This document shows positions 36,661 through 42,005 of a stretch of 64,000 nt of DNA, piece by piece. The notes beneath the pieces were generated by a model, which had not been told where the DNA came from, did not search any database, and worked only from the letters and a program-made list of their open reading frames with translations. The DNA is from Halorubrum salipaludis. GTDB taxonomy: Archaea > Halobacteriota > Halobacteria > Halobacteriales > Haloferacaceae. The position numbers and the translations under genes are program-made. The stretch is taken from NCBI RefSeq assembly GCF_002286985.1, contig NZ_NSKC01000001.1, positions 496,001 through 560,000 on the forward strand, given 5' to 3'. The first letter of the stretch is position 1; each line of letters begins with the position of its first letter.

Positions 36661-38715
36661 GTGTCACAGCAGTTGGCCGAGGTCGAGACGCTGTTCCTCC
36701 ACGAGGCGCGGAGCGACTACACCGTCGTCGCGAACCGCGACGGCAACCGGGTGCTCCGCGGGCGGCTCGAACTCAAGGAGACCTCCGCGGGGCCGCGACC
36801 GGGCAAGTTCCGGGTGATCCGCGACGGCGAGGACCACCCCCGCCAGCCCGACGAGTTCGTCGACCTCGCCCGCGCGGCCGGTCGGATCCGGATCTCCGAG
36901 CAGACCGCCCCCGAGAACCGGCAGCGACTGAAGGAGATGCTCGACGGCTACCAGCTGGAGGCGACGGCGGTCCGGACCTGCCGGCGCTGCGCGAGTGACG
37001 GGCGGTACGGCCCCATCACGAGCGAGAGCGCGATCGAGCACAACGGCGAGCTGATCTGCCGCGACTGCGCGCGCCGGGAGTTAGAGCGCGAGCTGTCGTA
37101 CAAAGGCGAATTCACGGGCGCCGCCGAGGAGCGGCTCGAAGAGCTCCTCTACGAGTCCGGCGACTTAGACCGGATCGTCAACCTCCTGCAGGGCGGGCTC
37201 GACCCCGACCTCACGAAGTACGACGAGGTCTCCGCGAACGTCGACGACATCTCGCCGGTCCGGACCGAGGACCTCGATCTGCATCCCGATCTCTCCGCGC
37301 ACCTCCAGGGACGCTTCGAGGAGCTGCTGCCGGTCCAGAGCCTCTCCGTGCGGAACGGCCTCTTGGAGGGAAACGACCAGCTCGTCGTGAGCGCGACCGC
37401 GACCGGGAAGACGCTGGTCGGCGAGCTGACGGGGATCGACCGGGCGCTGAAGGGGGACGGGAAGCTCCTCTTTCTGGTCCCGCTCGTCGCGCTCGCCAAC
37501 CAGAAGCACGAGGACTTCGAGGACCGCTACGGCGACCTGCTGAACGTCTCGATCCGCGTCGGCTCCTCGCGCGTGAACGACGACGGCAACCGGTTCGACC
37601 CGAACGCCGACGTGATCGTCGGCACCTACGAGGGGATCGACCACGCGCTCCGGACGGGCAAGGACTTAGGCGACGTGGGGACCGTCGTCATCGACGAGGT
37701 CCACACCCTGAAGGAAGGCGAGCGCGGCCACCGGCTCGACGGGCTCATCTCGCGGCTGAAGCACTACAGCGAGAAGCGGATGGAGACGCATTCGGGGTAC
37801 GACGGCACCCAGTTCGTCTACCTCTCCGCGACCGTCGGCAACCCCGAGTGGCTCGCCGAGAAGCTCCGGGCGACGCTGATCGAGTTCGAGGAGCGCCCCG
37901 TCCCCATCGAGCGCCACGTCACCTTCGCGGACAGCCGGGAGAAGGCGCAGATCGCCGACAAGCTCGTGAAACGCGAGTTCGACACGAAGTCGTCGAAGGG
38001 GTACCGCGGGCAGACGATCATCTTCACGAACTCCCGGCGGCGGTGCCACGAGATCAGCCGGAAGCTCCGGTACGACTCCGCGCCGTACCACGCCGGCCTC
38101 GACTACAAGCGCCGGAAGAAGGTGGAACGGCAGTTCGGGAACCAGGACCTCTCCGCGGTCGTCACCACCGCGGCGCTGGCCGCCGGCGTCGACTTCCCCG
38201 CCTCGCAGGTGATCTTCGACTCGCTGGCGATGGGGATCGAGTGGCTCTCCGTCCAGGAGTTCTCCCAGATGCTCGGCCGGGCCGGGCGACCGGACTACCA
38301 CGACCGCGGCCGCGTCTACCTCCTCGTCGAGCCCGACGGCGTCTACCACAACTCCATGGACCGCACGGAGGACGAGGTCGCCTTCACGCTCCTGAAAGGC
38401 GAGATGGAGGACGTGGCGACCCACTACGACGAGACCGCCGCGGTCGAGGAGACCCTCGCGAACGTCGTCGTCGCGGGCAAGAAGGCCAAGCGGCTCAACG
38501 ACCGAATGATCGGCGAGGTGCCGACGAAACACGCGGTCGGCAAACTGTTGGAGTGGGAGTTCATCGACGGCTTTGAGCCGACGCCGCTCGGTCGGGGGAT
38601 CACGAGGCACTTCCTCGCACCTGACGAGGCCTTCTTCATGCTCGACGCGATCCGGAAGGGGACCGACCCCTACCAGATCGTCGCCGACCTCGAACTGCGC
38701 GACGACGAGGAGTGA
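36661..38715 (+). CDS. COG1202 archaeal DEAD/DEAH-type superfamily II helicase with zinc finger
   Basis: A 684-residue helicase. Residues 1-105 are a family-specific N-terminal domain. A four-Cys zinc finger follows (CRRCASDGRYG...CRDCARRE, about 103-137). The helicase core has motif I SATATGKT near residue 245, motif II IDEVHTLKEG, motif III YLSATVGNP, FTNSRRRCHE, TTAALAAGVDFP and motif VI MLGRAGRPDYHD. A C-terminal winged-helix-like region ends the protein. Members are archaea-specific and thought to act in DNA or RNA metabolism, related to Hel308/Ski2-like enzymes; the precise role is not established. GTG start at 36661 with a TGAAATACC element about 30 bp upstream. Confidence 0.9.
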   Translation: MSQQLAEVETLFLHEARSDYTVVANRDGNRVLRGRLELKETSAGPRPGKFRVIRDGEDHPRQPDEFVDLARAAGRIRISEQTAPENRQRLKEMLDGYQLEATAVRTCRRCASDGRYGPITSESAIEHNGELICRDCARRELERELSYKGEFTGAAEERLEELLYESGDLDRIVNLLQGGLDPDLTKYDEVSANVDDISPVRTEDLDLHPDLSAHLQGRFEELLPVQSLSVRNGLLEGNDQLVVSATATGKTLVGELTGIDRALKGDGKLLFLVPLVALANQKHEDFEDRYGDLLNVSIRVGSSRVNDDGNRFDPNADVIVGTYEGIDHALRTGKDLGDVGTVVIDEVHTLKEGERGHRLDGLISRLKHYSEKRMETHSGYDGTQFVYLSATVGNPEWLAEKLRATLIEFEERPVPIERHVTFADSREKAQIADKLVKREFDTKSSKGYRGQTIIFTNSRRRCHEISRKLRYDSAPYHAGLDYKRRKKVERQFGNQDLSAVVTTAALAAGVDFPASQVIFDSLAMGIEWLSVQEFSQMLGRAGRPDYHDRGRVYLLVEPDGVYHNSMDRTEDEVAFTLLKGEMEDVATHYDETAAVEETLANVVVAGKKAKRLNDRMIGEVPTKHAVGKLLEWEFIDGFEPTPLGRGITRHFLAPDEAFFMLDAIRKGTDPYQIVADLELRDDEE

Positions 38716-38793
38716 GGACCAGAGGGGAAACCGGGGCGTACCCCGCCCGCGCAACGAAACGCTTTACCGGCCGATGCGGGTACGTATGGGTGC

Positions 38794-38864
38794 GGGGCCG
38801 TGGGGTAGTGGTATCCTCGCTGCCTTGGGTGCAGTGGACCTGAGTTCGACTCTCAGCGGCCCCA
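38794..38864 (+). tRNA. tRNA-Pro (anticodon TGG)
   Basis: A 71-nt cloverleaf. Acceptor GGGGCCG (38794-38800) pairs with CGGCCCC (38857-38863) plus discriminator A. The anticodon stem GCTGC/GCAGT closes the loop CTTGGGT with anticodon TGG, and the T-arm is CTGAG-TTCGACT-CTCAG. The D-loop AGTGGTA carries the invariant GG. CCA is not encoded beyond the A. A TATA-like ACGCTTTACC lies about 30 bp upstream. It abuts a low-GC island that starts within 5 bp of its 3' end. Confidence 0.93.
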
Positions 38865-38868
38865 TCCG

Positions 38869-39072
38869 TTATTCTTGGCCGTTACAGACAACCTGTTCGA
38901 GTTCTGCATGAAGATCGGGATGGTGTTTCCTGAGAACCTCTACGTCAGTTTGGAGTTCTTCGTGAATTCGATTTCGGATTCGTGATACGGCTTGATACTG
39001 ATTCGGACCGGTGTTCTTCGATCGGAGATGTTCACGCTCGGTTTCAGTAAGGAGAGCACGTGTTCGTGCCAT
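38869..39072 (-). CDS. Small conserved haloarchaeal protein (67 aa) at the island edge
   Basis: A 67-residue mostly helical protein: MARTRALLTETEREHLRSK, then YQAVSRIRNRIHEEL, DVEVLRKHHPDL and a Cys near the end (VVCNGQE). I recognise similar 60-70 residue proteins in many haloarchaea, often with RYxAxSRVRxRI-type cores, but no function is established; size and charge would suit a DNA-binding or regulatory role. Its stop lies 5 bp from the tRNA-Pro 3' end, on the opposite strand. The ATG at 39072 is preceded by a pair of direct repeats holding GTGTACAC, a likely control site. Confidence 0.8.
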   Translation of the reverse strand: MARTRALLTETEREHLRSKNTGPNQYQAVSRIRNRIHEELQTDVEVLRKHHPDLHAELEQVVCNGQE

Positions 39073-39077
39073 GGTTT

Positions 39078-39122
39078 GTGTACACATCTGTCTGGTAAGT
39101 GTACACTGCATCTGTCTGGTAA
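39078..39122. promoter_or_regulatory. Paired direct repeats with GTGTACAC palindromes upstream of the 67-aa gene
   Basis: GTGTACAC occurs at 39078-39085 and 39099-39106, and CATCTGTCTGGTAA at 39085-39098 and 39109-39122. The two composite units lie 6-50 bp before the leftward ATG at 39072, so they can hold a cooperative regulator over its promoter. A further AT-rich TTTGCAAATATACAAATG at about 39146-39163 could be the TATA region. Confidence 0.65.
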
Positions 39123-39205
39123 CGGTTCGACGCTGTCCGATCAGTTTGCAAATATACAAATGTGAGTGGGAGGATCTACAAACCGGATAACGAATCACGA
39201 CAGAT

Positions 39206-40351
39206 ATGGAGTCACACAGGTAAGGGGGTCTCACCGAGCAAATTGTCATCACAGAGCTGAAAAAGCGTAATATTAGCGTGTCAACGCCAGTAGGCGACAA
39301 CGAACGATACGATCTCGTCTTGGAAAAGCCGGATGGCGATCTGTTGCGTGCACAGATCAAAACAGGGCGGGTGAAAGACGGAGTCGTCCGATTCAAGGGG
39401 GTAAGCCAGCACACGAACTCGTCTGGGCACGTGTACAAGCAGTACGGCGACGATGTCGACTGTTTTCTCGTACACTCCAACGAAACAGAGGAAACCTATT
39501 TCGTCGATTCTGAAGAGGTTGGGACCTCGATGCACTTGCGTATCGATCCGCCTGCTCAGAAAACCAGTCAGATCAATTGGGCCGAAGAGTACCACCTCGA
39601 GCAACAATGGCCGCCCACCGACCACAGCAAAAGAGACTCGACAGTTACTGCGGTTATCGACGCGCTCGAAAGCGTAGAAGGCACTGTATATATTGATCCG
39701 ACCAGAGAAGGCGATCAGGTCTTATTGTTTGTCGACGCAGACGACGAAACACATCGAATTGGAGCCAAGACCGGATGGATTGTGAATGGCCGAGTCCGGT
39801 TCACCCCGAGTGAAGCCGCAGAGTATCATCTCGTATACTGTGATGAGTTAGACGATTTGCTGTCTGTACATTCTGATGAATTTAACGAGTCCATCTCCTT
39901 CCGAGTAGACAGCGAGAATACTCGAGAGGGCACAAATCCAGTAGACAAGTATACGTTCGAGAATAACTGGCCGCCATCCATTGTCGGGACTTCACCGACA
40001 GATCCAACGCCGGAACTGACCCGGTTCATCAGTAGACTGGAAGACAAACAGATGGCGTATAACCGTGTAGAATACGACGGTAAAAGGGAGGTAGAAGTGT
40101 ATTGTGGAGGATCTTATTTTCGAATCCGTGTCGAATCGGCATGGATCGAGAACGGACTGATCCGATTCAATGCGAACGGAAACAACGTCGATTACTATTC
40201 ATTTGAGAATCCTGAGAAAGAGGAATGGTATCTCGTATCGGACGATTCGTTTGGTAGTTCGATCTCACTTCGAGTAGATCCACCGGAAAAAGAAGATTAT
40301 CGGATTAATTTTGCAAAAGATTATCTACTAGAAAGAATGTGGCCAGTGTGA
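39206..40351 (+). pseudogene. Triple PD-(D/E)XK-like domain protein, interrupted by an early in-frame TAA
   Basis: The frame starts ATG GAG TCA CAC AGG at 39206 and hits TAA at 39221, then stays open to 40351. The usual N-terminal helix of this family (LTEQIVITELKKRNI) lies after the stop and before a GTG at 39278, the first usable restart, which would give 357 residues. Domain 1 matches the group I intron-associated PD-(D/E)XK_5 nuclease: GDNERYDLV and RAQIKTG, with Asp12 and Gln26-x-Lys28 (GTG numbering). Two further domains (about 121-230 and 240-357) repeat its layout but have RIGAKTG and RIRVESA at the catalytic site. Base composition is clearly AT-richer than the neighbours, a sign of transfer. 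It may be a pseudogene or a shortened active protein. Confidence 0.75.
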
Positions 40352-40403
40352 GCTGACTATTTGCCGAAAGTTATTCCGAGTGTCAAATCACCGAGGACGG
40401 TCC

Positions 40404-41363
40404 TCACCGCTCCAGCACCGTCCCGCTGGCGCCGACGACGTAGTCGCGGTCGCCGTCGAACGCCGCGACGGCGCGGAGGTTCTGTCCGGAAGGCGTGTCG
40501 ACGACGGTCCAGTCGCCGTCCTCGCGCTCGACGACGGTGCCGCTCCCGCCGACGGCGACCCCGCCGGCGCCACCGGTGATCACGTCCTTGAGGCCGGCCT
40601 CGGCGATCCGGTCCGACCGCCACTCGACGCCGTCGTAGACGTAGAGCGAGCCGCTCCCGCCGACGACGGTCACGTCGTCGGGGGCGTCGGCGTCGAGCCC
40701 GGCGAAGGTGGTGTCCGCGTCCTCGATGCCGAACGGCTCCCACGTGGTGCCGTCGTCGGTGGCGAACACCTTCCCGTTCGTGTCGATGAGGGTCCCCGCG
40801 CGGGCGCCGTAGAAGTCGACGGCGGGGATGCCGGCGCCGGAGCCGGGCGTGAGGTAGTTCCAAGTGCCCTCCTCGCCGTTCTCGAAGCTGTAGTACACCA
40901 GCCCGGAGTCGTCGACCACGTACACGTCCGCGTCGCCCGCGGGGCCCGTGACCGCGACGGAGTTGAACTGGTTGGAGGCGTCGTTCGGCTGCGACCGGTC
41001 GACCAGGTTGCCGGTGGTCACGTCGTACTCACCGACGGCGCCGCTGTTGCCGACCATCCAGAGGCGCTCGCCGTCGTCGGTGACCGCGGCGCCGCGGAGC
41101 CCGTTGCCGTTGCCGGAGACGCCGCCGCGGAACACCGTCTCCCAGCCGGCCGCCGTCCGCTCGATCAGCACGCCGCCCGCCCCGACCGCGTGCGGGTTCG
41201 CGGCGGTGTACCGAACGTCGTGGAGGGTCCCGTCGACCGGGGTCTTCGCGGCGGTCCAGTCGGAGGCCGACTCATCCGCCGCCGACACGACGCCGGGGAC
41301 CGCGGCGGCCGCGACCGATGCACCTGCGAGCTTCACGACCGAACGTCGAGTGTGTCGGGTCAT
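40404..41363 (-). CDS. Tat-exported beta-propeller-like protein
   Basis: A 319-residue protein with a Tat signal (TRHTRRSVVKLAGASVAAAA, cleavage near VSAAD, residue 30). The mature part has repeated short strands with Gly-Asp turns (GAAVTDDGERLWMVGNSGAV, SVAVTGPAGDADVYVVDDSG, GGSGSLYVYDGVEW, VVGASGTVLER), as in photosynthesis-system HCF136/BNR-type or other beta-propellers. No lipobox Cys. The ATG at 41363 has a GGTTTTTACC element about 30 bp upstream on the minus strand. GC content is back to normal here, so the low-GC island ends before it. Ligand or enzymatic role unknown. Confidence 0.8.
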   Translation of the reverse strand: MTRHTRRSVVKLAGASVAAAAVPGVVSAADESASDWTAAKTPVDGTLHDVRYTAANPHAVGAGGVLIERTAAGWETVFRGGVSGNGNGLRGAAVTDDGERLWMVGNSGAVGEYDVTTGNLVDRSQPNDASNQFNSVAVTGPAGDADVYVVDDSGLVYYSFENGEEGTWNYLTPGSGAGIPAVDFYGARAGTLIDTNGKVFATDDGTTWEPFGIEDADTTFAGLDADAPDDVTVVGGSGSLYVYDGVEWRSDRIAEAGLKDVITGGAGGVAVGGSGTVVEREDGDWTVVDTPSGQNLRAVAAFDGDRDYVVGASGTVLER

Positions 41364-41667
41364 CGCATCTGGTCGGTGTGCCGGAAGGGTGGTAAAAACC
41401 GGAAACCGTGGCGGTGAATTGAACCGATTTCGGGCGACTTGAACGGAGTTGATCGGGTCAACGAACGGTGCTTTCAAGTAAGCGATCGAAACGGCCGATG
41501 CTTTGAAGTGAAGAATCGAATCGAGCCGCGGTGCCGGTCTCGATCGCGTTCGAGGCGGCGCCGAGCGAGGCCGCGCGCGCGGACGACGGCGGGGCGACGC
41601 GACGCGCCGACCCGGTCGCCGCCTTTCGAAATCCTTTTGTCTCGAATCGGCGTTGGTCAGATTGCGA
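41364..41667. other. 304-bp gene-free stretch before tRNA-Phe
   Basis: It holds the leftward promoter of the propeller-like gene (about 41395) and the tRNA promoter (GAAATCCTTTTGTC at about 41628-41641). Between them there are short imperfect repeats of GCTTTGAAGTGA and GCTTTCAAGTAA type (41470-41515). No credible coding frame. Confidence 0.55.
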
Positions 41668-41741
41668 GCCGCCTTAGCTCAGACTGGGAGAGCACTCGAC
41701 TGAAGATCGAGCTGTCCCCCGTTCAAATCGGGGAGGCGGCA
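41668..41741 (+). tRNA. tRNA-Phe (anticodon GAA)
   Basis: A 74-nt cloverleaf: acceptor GCCGCCT (41668-41674) with AGGCGGC (41734-41740) and discriminator A, anticodon stem CTCGA/TCGAG around CTGAAGA (anticodon GAA), T-arm CCCCC-GTTCAAAT-CGGGG. D-loop contains GG in AGACTGGGA. A T-run (CTTTTTG) follows directly and may terminate transcription. Partial copies of the 3' half lie downstream. Confidence 0.96.
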
Positions 41742-41774
41742 TGGCTTTTTGACACGGTTTAGATTCGGGAGTTT

Positions 41775-42005
41775 CGACTGAAGATCGAGCTGTCCCCCGT
41801 CCCCGCGAGCGCGGCGAGCGGGGGCTCGGAAGACGAGCGCAGCGAAGTCTTCCGGCGTTCAAATCGGGGAGGCGGCATATTCTGAACCCGCGAGCGCAGC
41901 GAGCGGGTAAAGAAACGACGCCGAGCCGATTTGAGCACGGAAGTCGCAGCGCGCGAACGAAGTGAGCGCGACCGTCTTCCGGCGTTCAAATCGGGGAGGC
42001 AGCAT
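41775..42005. repeat. Partial copies of the tRNA-Phe 3' half (probable integration scars)
   Basis: 41775-41800 repeats 26 bp from the anticodon arm to the T-stem of tRNA-Phe exactly. 41857-41878 repeats the last 22 bp (GTTCAAATCGGGGAGGCGGC plus AT). 41984-42005 repeats it again with one mismatch. Between the copies are hairpin-forming GCGAGCGCAGCGAGCG-type runs and CGGAAGAC...GTCTTCCG (41827-41854). None of the copies has a 5' half, so they are not tRNA genes. Such arrays are what repeated integration and excision at a tRNA attachment site leave behind. Confidence 0.8.

Follow-up and report, generated by a model that had tools for sequence, protein, structure and literature searches.

A tRNA-Pro-linked gene with three PD-(D/E)XK domains in Halorubrum salipaludis is a probable free-standing homing endonuclease gene

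Background

To our knowledge, what is understood of PD-(D/E)XK homing endonucleases comes essentially from one studied enzyme, I-Ssp6803I, whose catalytic residues we take to be the Glu/Asp/Gln-x-Lys set also present in the first domain of the protein described here, and whose tetramer, according to its structure paper, reportedly reads one long site. Within the LAGLIDADG fold, single-chain duplicated homing endonucleases have put a multi-subunit grip on DNA into one chain by repeat fusion. I-Ssp6803I is located in a tRNA-fMet gene and was reported to be specific to the anticodon region (PMC1995217), and the enzyme is a tetramer (PMC3943268). LAGLIDADG endonucleases are also encoded in archaea, in the introns of structural RNA genes (PMC6125680). 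SegB of phage T4, a free-standing nuclease of a tRNA region, spreads by intronless homing (PMC2988022), and in engineered Cleave-and-Rescue elements a nuclease is linked to its essential target in a recoded version that it cannot cut (PMC7951863).

The window analysed here is a stretch of 64,000 nucleotides from Halorubrum salipaludis. It contains a gene that, with a probability of roughly three in four, would be a free-standing PD-(D/E)XK homing endonuclease gene (PF11645, I-Ssp6803I-like) targeting the adjoining tRNA-Pro(TGG) gene and accompanied by a cleavage-resistant tRNA; both target and resistance are deduced from association. This interpretation draws on the shared fold, the linkage to tRNA genes, the patchy presence with an empty site, and the constant partner allele in Halorubrum.

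Results

The nuclease gene occupies positions 39206 to 40351 of the forward strand, as judged by alignment with six open-frame Halorubrum relatives. PF11645 (PDDEXK_5) is the sole significant Pfam family in the protein, scoring 142 bits for the whole and 111 for domain 1 against a curated cut-off of 26.1, and no GIY-YIG catalytic domain was found. A sequence-only reading had pointed out three segments alike in layout (RAQIKTGRVKDGVVRF, RIGAKTGWIVNGRVRF and RIRVESAWIENGLIRF), with an SxxxRxD-like strand and WPP or WPV after each, and this layout agrees with three domains on the forward strand: D1 (39224 to 39616), D2 (39617 to 39991) and D3 (39992 to 40348). All three match PF11645 to some degree (E=6e-32, 0.0011 and 5e-5, respectively); D2 and D3 singly score under the cut-off, yet they match by profile-profile comparison, with hhalign probabilities of 98.4 for D1-D2, 98.8 for D1-D3 and 99.3 for D2-D3. 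AlphaFold2 predicted the same fold for each, with one order of elements repeated three times (mean pLDDT 79), and a pTM of 0.39 means that the arrangement of the domains in this model is not reliable. In a Foldseek search the four chains of I-Ssp6803I (2OST) ranked first and EcoRV was also among the matches; searching the PDB by sequence likewise put 2OST first, and it is the closest solved structure (E 1e-8). The full triplet is also found in homologues elsewhere (L003-L008, L162 and L166), and D2 and D3 are predicted to share the fold of D1, so neither finding that would speak against tandem domains was made.

The full catalytic set is found in D1 alone, as the sequence-only reading had noted for Gln-x-Lys and the upstream Asp. 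The codons start at 39236 (Glu), 39311 (Asp), 39353 (Gln) and 39359 (Lys) on the forward strand, and the four residues are invariant in 24/24 aligned proteins. Nothing of Glu/Asp/Gln-x-Lys is kept as a conserved set in D2 or D3 (alignments A1 and A2), which bears out the loss of the active site from the second and third copies. The finer claim, that D2 had lost Gln and only D3 Lys as well, does not extend beyond the window, since D2 of the relatives also lacks the Lys (VETG, IERA and IQRA) and the Lys of the window is therefore not a conserved feature. Tandem duplication of one PDDEXK_5 domain followed by loss of the active site is likewise upheld, but free decay of the copies is not: pairwise dN/dS was 0.07-0.16 for D1, 0.15-0.31 for D2 and 0.10-0.35 for D3, well below 1 in all, and purifying selection acts on D2 and D3 across eight relatives from Halorubrum. 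The low dN/dS indicates that the catalytically dead domains are retained for something, and this selection, together with the tetrameric state of I-Ssp6803I, is compatible with the suggestion that they are DNA-reading modules beside one nuclease.

The open reading frame first reported began at GTG 39278 and ran to 40351 on the forward strand. This start was rejected, since all relatives begin at the upstream ATG (39206 in the window), with MESHRRGDLTEQ or MESHRQGDLTEQ in six Halorubrum relatives, whose frames are open through codon 6. At that codon the window has a premature TAA (39221 to 39223, forward strand), overlooked in the sequence-only reading, where relatives have CGA, CGG or CAA, giving an N-terminus of MESHR-stop-GGLTEQ. 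Translation from GTG 39278 would leave out two elements encoded further 5', helix 1 and the catalytic Glu (39236-39238). With codon 6 a stop and the restart skipping the Glu, the window copy is probably inactive; to judge from its sequence it is most likely a gene that was inactivated recently, and a sequencing error at 39221 is a possible cause of the TAA. Broken copies occur across the family, with stops in L026, L050, L116, L121 and others, which fits the decay expected of homing genes once they are fixed. The copies in L026, L050 and the window are three separate ones stopped within about the first ten codons.

The window copy could instead still work as a shortened DNA-binding protein from GTG 39278, for example as a repressor of intact copies. 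This explanation concerns the window copy only and is compatible with homing; beyond the stop the frame stays open, and dN/dS against relatives gives no sign of relaxed selection. With helix 1 and the Glu missing, the upstream ATG used by all relatives and stop-broken copies found across the family, it is considered rather unlikely.

Immediately upstream of the nuclease locus is tRNA-Pro(TGG) (38794 to 38864, forward strand, ARAGORN), in the form termed allele A below and probably the target gene in a resistant, rewritten state. Comparison by blastn with L178, a Halorubrum locus from genome G300 that carries allele B, aligned 38000-38867 at 90.8% and then 40406-41742 at 91.6%. L178 is thus an empty site, as the extra 38868 to 40405 of the window (no strand assigned) falls between sides about 91% identical. 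The GC content of this inserted segment is 48% and that of its flanks 68%. The low-GC patch had been taken for a generic hotspot of defence and mobile-element genes beside a tRNA; the patch is the element itself, and the tRNA is its likely target.

Two further features of the segment lie 5' of the nuclease gene. A small divergent ORF of 67 aa (MARTRALLTETEREHL..., 38869 to 39072, reverse strand) belongs to a family that accompanies tRNA-Pro nucleases, being present at every Halorubrum locus with the nuclease and at some of the two-domain loci; Pfam and PADLOC searches with it gave nothing significant, and it is possibly a regulator. An AT-rich TTTG..AATATACAAATG box (39144 to 39162, forward strand), conserved about 45-60 nt 5' of the ATG and present upstream of L003-L008 as well as in the window, may serve as a promoter-like element.

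The predicted neighbourhood of defence or mobile-element genes was not encountered. The surrounding genes are those of a conserved DEAD-box helicase, the tRNA-Pro, a weakly WD/tectonin-like protein and a tRNA-Phe, and neither a defence system nor an integrase was seen at the locus. A piece of the tRNA-Phe is repeated just 3' of that gene (41774-41800), possibly as an old integration scar, and similar 3' tRNA fragments occur in L178, L143, L153 and L078. PADLOC matched no core genes of anti-phage defence at the locus; the conserved helicase gave generic helicase matches, and the only match of the nuclease was a weak one to 'HEase homing endonuclease' (E 5e-4). A group I intron around the nuclease gene was ruled out, as Rfam found only the tRNA in the window locus (L160).

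To place the gene in its family, 292 haloarchaeal genomes were scanned for PF11645, and the loci listed were fetched and then searched for tRNA genes. The family is present in 138/292 genomes. A same-strand tRNA gene lies within 1.2 kb of 146 of the 151 domain-1 sequences that could be placed in a tree, a count that includes a few uncertain tRNA calls with odd intron predictions, and within 400 nt of 136 (median 128 nt). The partner tRNA tracks the nuclease tree, needing 11 changes where shuffling gave a mean of 69, and the partners are tRNA-Asp, which is the commonest, tRNA-Pro, tRNA-Asn, tRNA-Lys and smaller groups. All 26 tRNA-Pro members fall in one clade (support 98). The multi-domain forms belong to this tRNA-Pro(TGG) clade, where two-domain proteins are found in several families and the three-domain proteins make up one subclade confined to Halorubrum; a few single-domain members also lie within it, so the gains and losses of domains are not fully ordered. 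L155, L157 and L158 form a separate divergent branch that has no tRNA neighbour and may serve another role. The genome of the window has a second, single-domain relative with an open frame (L002, G000:C1:137958-138563), which sits between an intron-bearing tRNA-Asn and tRNA-Met. Three other single-domain nucleases (L047, L052 and L072) have complete, identical tRNA-Asp genes on both sides. Outside the class Halobacteria the phylum sample held no PF11645 match above the curated cut-off, and plasmid records gave no match. No description of the linkage to tRNA genes was found in the literature searched, which left many subscription papers outside.

Relatives also adjoin tRNA genes in tailed viruses of haloarchaea, Synechococcus, Pectobacterium, Enterococcus and Pseudoalteromonas and in kutterviruses (L321, L322, L324, L325, L326, L327, L328 and L329), for example tRNA-Asn in Haloferacalesviruses; HATV-2 is an exception. 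These viruses bear on the alternative of a restriction-like defence nuclease, in which D2 and D3 read foreign DNA and D1 cuts it, for instance in incoming elements with tRNA-derived attachment sites. The PD-(D/E)XK fold also occurs in restriction enzymes, as the EcoRV match recalls, and halovirus attachment sites are tRNA fragments (PMC7230728). Such a function is nevertheless very improbable, given that the gene has no methylase or defence partners, that its single weak PADLOC match names a homing endonuclease, and that haloviruses and phages themselves bear such nucleases by their own tRNA genes.

Among the Halorubrum genomes typed, tRNA-Pro(TGG) comes 3' of the same helicase gene and exists as two alleles, A and B, that differ at 18/71 bases; they share the anticodon loop, and their stems are re-paired. 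The tRNA of the window shows 0 differences from that of other nuclease-bearing Halorubrum and the full 18/71 from allele B. The body of allele A closely matches tRNA-Pro(GGG), with 1 difference 5' and 1 difference 3' of the anticodon arm, and the arm is that of TGG. A split such as that between A and B is unusual, as the neighbouring tRNA-Phe and the exons of tRNA-Asn are nearly invariant within Halorubrum. In 44 genomes, allele A occurred with the nuclease in 9 and without it in 7, and allele B occurred without it in 28 and with it in 0 (Fisher 1.6e-5, with shared ancestry ignored); the 9 include G224, in which domain 1 is eroded, and the window genome with its stop. Only 3 phylogenetically independent pairs were supported for nuclease against allele, too few for significance, and part of the association will come from linkage alone, since about 350 bp separate the nuclease from the tRNA. 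Mapped onto a tree built from the upstream helicase region, the alleles required 14 changes, no fewer than shuffled labels, and 5' flanks were near-identical across alleles, those of G000 (A) and G295 (B) being identical over 40 nt. Alleles scattered on the tree behind the same flanks point to repeated allele replacement. A search for nuclease remnants in allele-A genomes without the nuclease recovered nothing beyond part of the small ORF in G072. Displaced halves of an old tRNA were sought 3' of the tRNA-Pro nuclease genes, and none were found.

The window locus combines a conserved adjoining gene as candidate target, patchiness among close relatives, an empty site in a relative and an altered target in the bearer, as looked for in free-standing homing endonuclease genes. 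Alteration of the partner tRNA was also observed elsewhere. In other families, the anticodon arm of tRNA-Pro was more than 2 nt off the common sequence in 21/26 nuclease-bearing cases versus 8/25 without the nuclease (p 6e-4; 0.007 with Halorubrum collapsed); the anticodon stems of the former were varied, whereas the nuclease-free ones mostly had one sequence. One rewritten tRNA-Pro has the same sequence in families f2 and f3, which points to transfer. In Halorubrum, the anticodon loop of tRNA-Asn was interrupted by an intron of about 34-37 nt in 20/23 genomes with an apparently intact nuclease, in 0/3 with a broken one and in 3/24 with none (Fisher 2.6e-7, from a tally that ignores shared ancestry). 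Exceptions to the rule of an altered target are three Halorubrum genomes in which an apparently intact nuclease adjoins an intronless tRNA-Asn, and L124, in which an intact-looking nuclease adjoins an ordinary tRNA-Pro anticodon arm. The rule is not claimed for the tRNA-Asp branch, because the tRNA-Asp genes are much alike with and without the nuclease and no allele difference was apparent.

At L077, a PDDEXK_5 ORF (1933-2459) fills a 451-nt intron of tRNA-Lys(TTT). The pre-tRNA folds as a cloverleaf with a bulge-helix-bulge-like junction, and Rfam detected no group I intron there; judged from its sequence, this is an archaeal tRNA intron encoding a PD-(D/E)XK endonuclease. Introns occur in the tRNA genes beside several members, and the linkage to particular tRNAs is extreme, as might be expected of an enzyme that acts on the tRNA itself, in processing, splicing or anticodon cleavage, and is encoded in cis with its substrate. 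Action on the tRNA is highly unlikely: the sole relative to have been characterised is an endonuclease of DNA (PMC1995217), allele A occurs in some genomes without the nuclease, and a tRNA needed by all contrasts with a nuclease held by 138 genomes in 292.

A further alternative is that the gene encodes an ordinary accessory nuclease and lies in a hotspot flanking a tRNA gene, where the tRNA is a mere landing site and allele A hitch-hikes by linkage. Haloarchaeal tRNA genes are common integration sites (PMC8651126), the nuclease is close to its tRNA, and 3' tRNA fragments are found downstream of several such tRNAs, adjoining some of the tRNA-Asn and tRNA-Lys partners. A generic hotspot would not, however, predict one particular tRNA per nuclease clade across families; the element has no integrase, the alleles differ over the whole tRNA body and not in the 5' flank, and one anticodon-loop region is altered differently in different partners. 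The hotspot explanation has little chance of being correct.

Discussion

Homing is the explanation preferred for this locus. The enzyme would cut the anticodon-arm region of an ordinary allele-B tRNA-Pro gene wherever a cell or genome copy has no nuclease gene, and repair off the donor would copy in the nuclease gene along with a rewritten, functional and uncuttable tRNA, allele A. D2 and D3 may assume, within one chain, the DNA-reading role of the extra subunits of the I-Ssp6803I tetramer; a single-chain substitute for those subunits is the simplest idea suggested by the analogy. The window copy would represent the decay stage of the cycle, with a nonsense codon near its start and the resistant allele still present.

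Roughly half of the sampled haloarchaeal genomes have PF11645 relatives, nearly all by a specific tRNA gene. If homing is true, selfish nucleases account for sharply different tRNA alleles or introns among close species, and the old question of why archaeal tRNA introns so often lie in the anticodon loop could be tested as one of protection from cleavage. The series of one-, two- and three-domain proteins would offer a route to building a multi-subunit DNA grip in one chain.

I-Ssp6803I (PDB 2OST, from a group I intron of Synechocystis tRNA-fMet) resembles the window protein in fold, in family-level similarity and in its placement at a tRNA gene. It is single-domain, tetrameric and encoded in a group I intron, whereas the window gene is free-standing and archaeal, has three domains per chain and is without such an intron. 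SegB shares with it the free-standing state and the tRNA region, but has a GIY-YIG fold and is phage-borne, and we know of no rewritten tRNA that travels with SegB. The duplicated LAGLIDADG enzymes differ in fold and in that both halves feed active sites, whereas two of the three domains here have lost theirs; the LAGLIDADG endonucleases of archaeal introns, also of another fold, reside in rRNA rather than tRNA genes. Cleave-and-Rescue is synthetic, while the window element is natural and would replace its target at the target's own locus. It is about an even chance that the three-domain nuclease and the fully rewritten tRNA-Pro form a natural cleave-and-rescue unit that has repeatedly replaced the Halorubrum tRNA-Pro(TGG) gene, and that the tRNA-linked haloarchaeal PF11645 proteins are tRNA-gene parasites, each with its own route to uncuttability, by rewritten stems or by an anticodon-loop intron.
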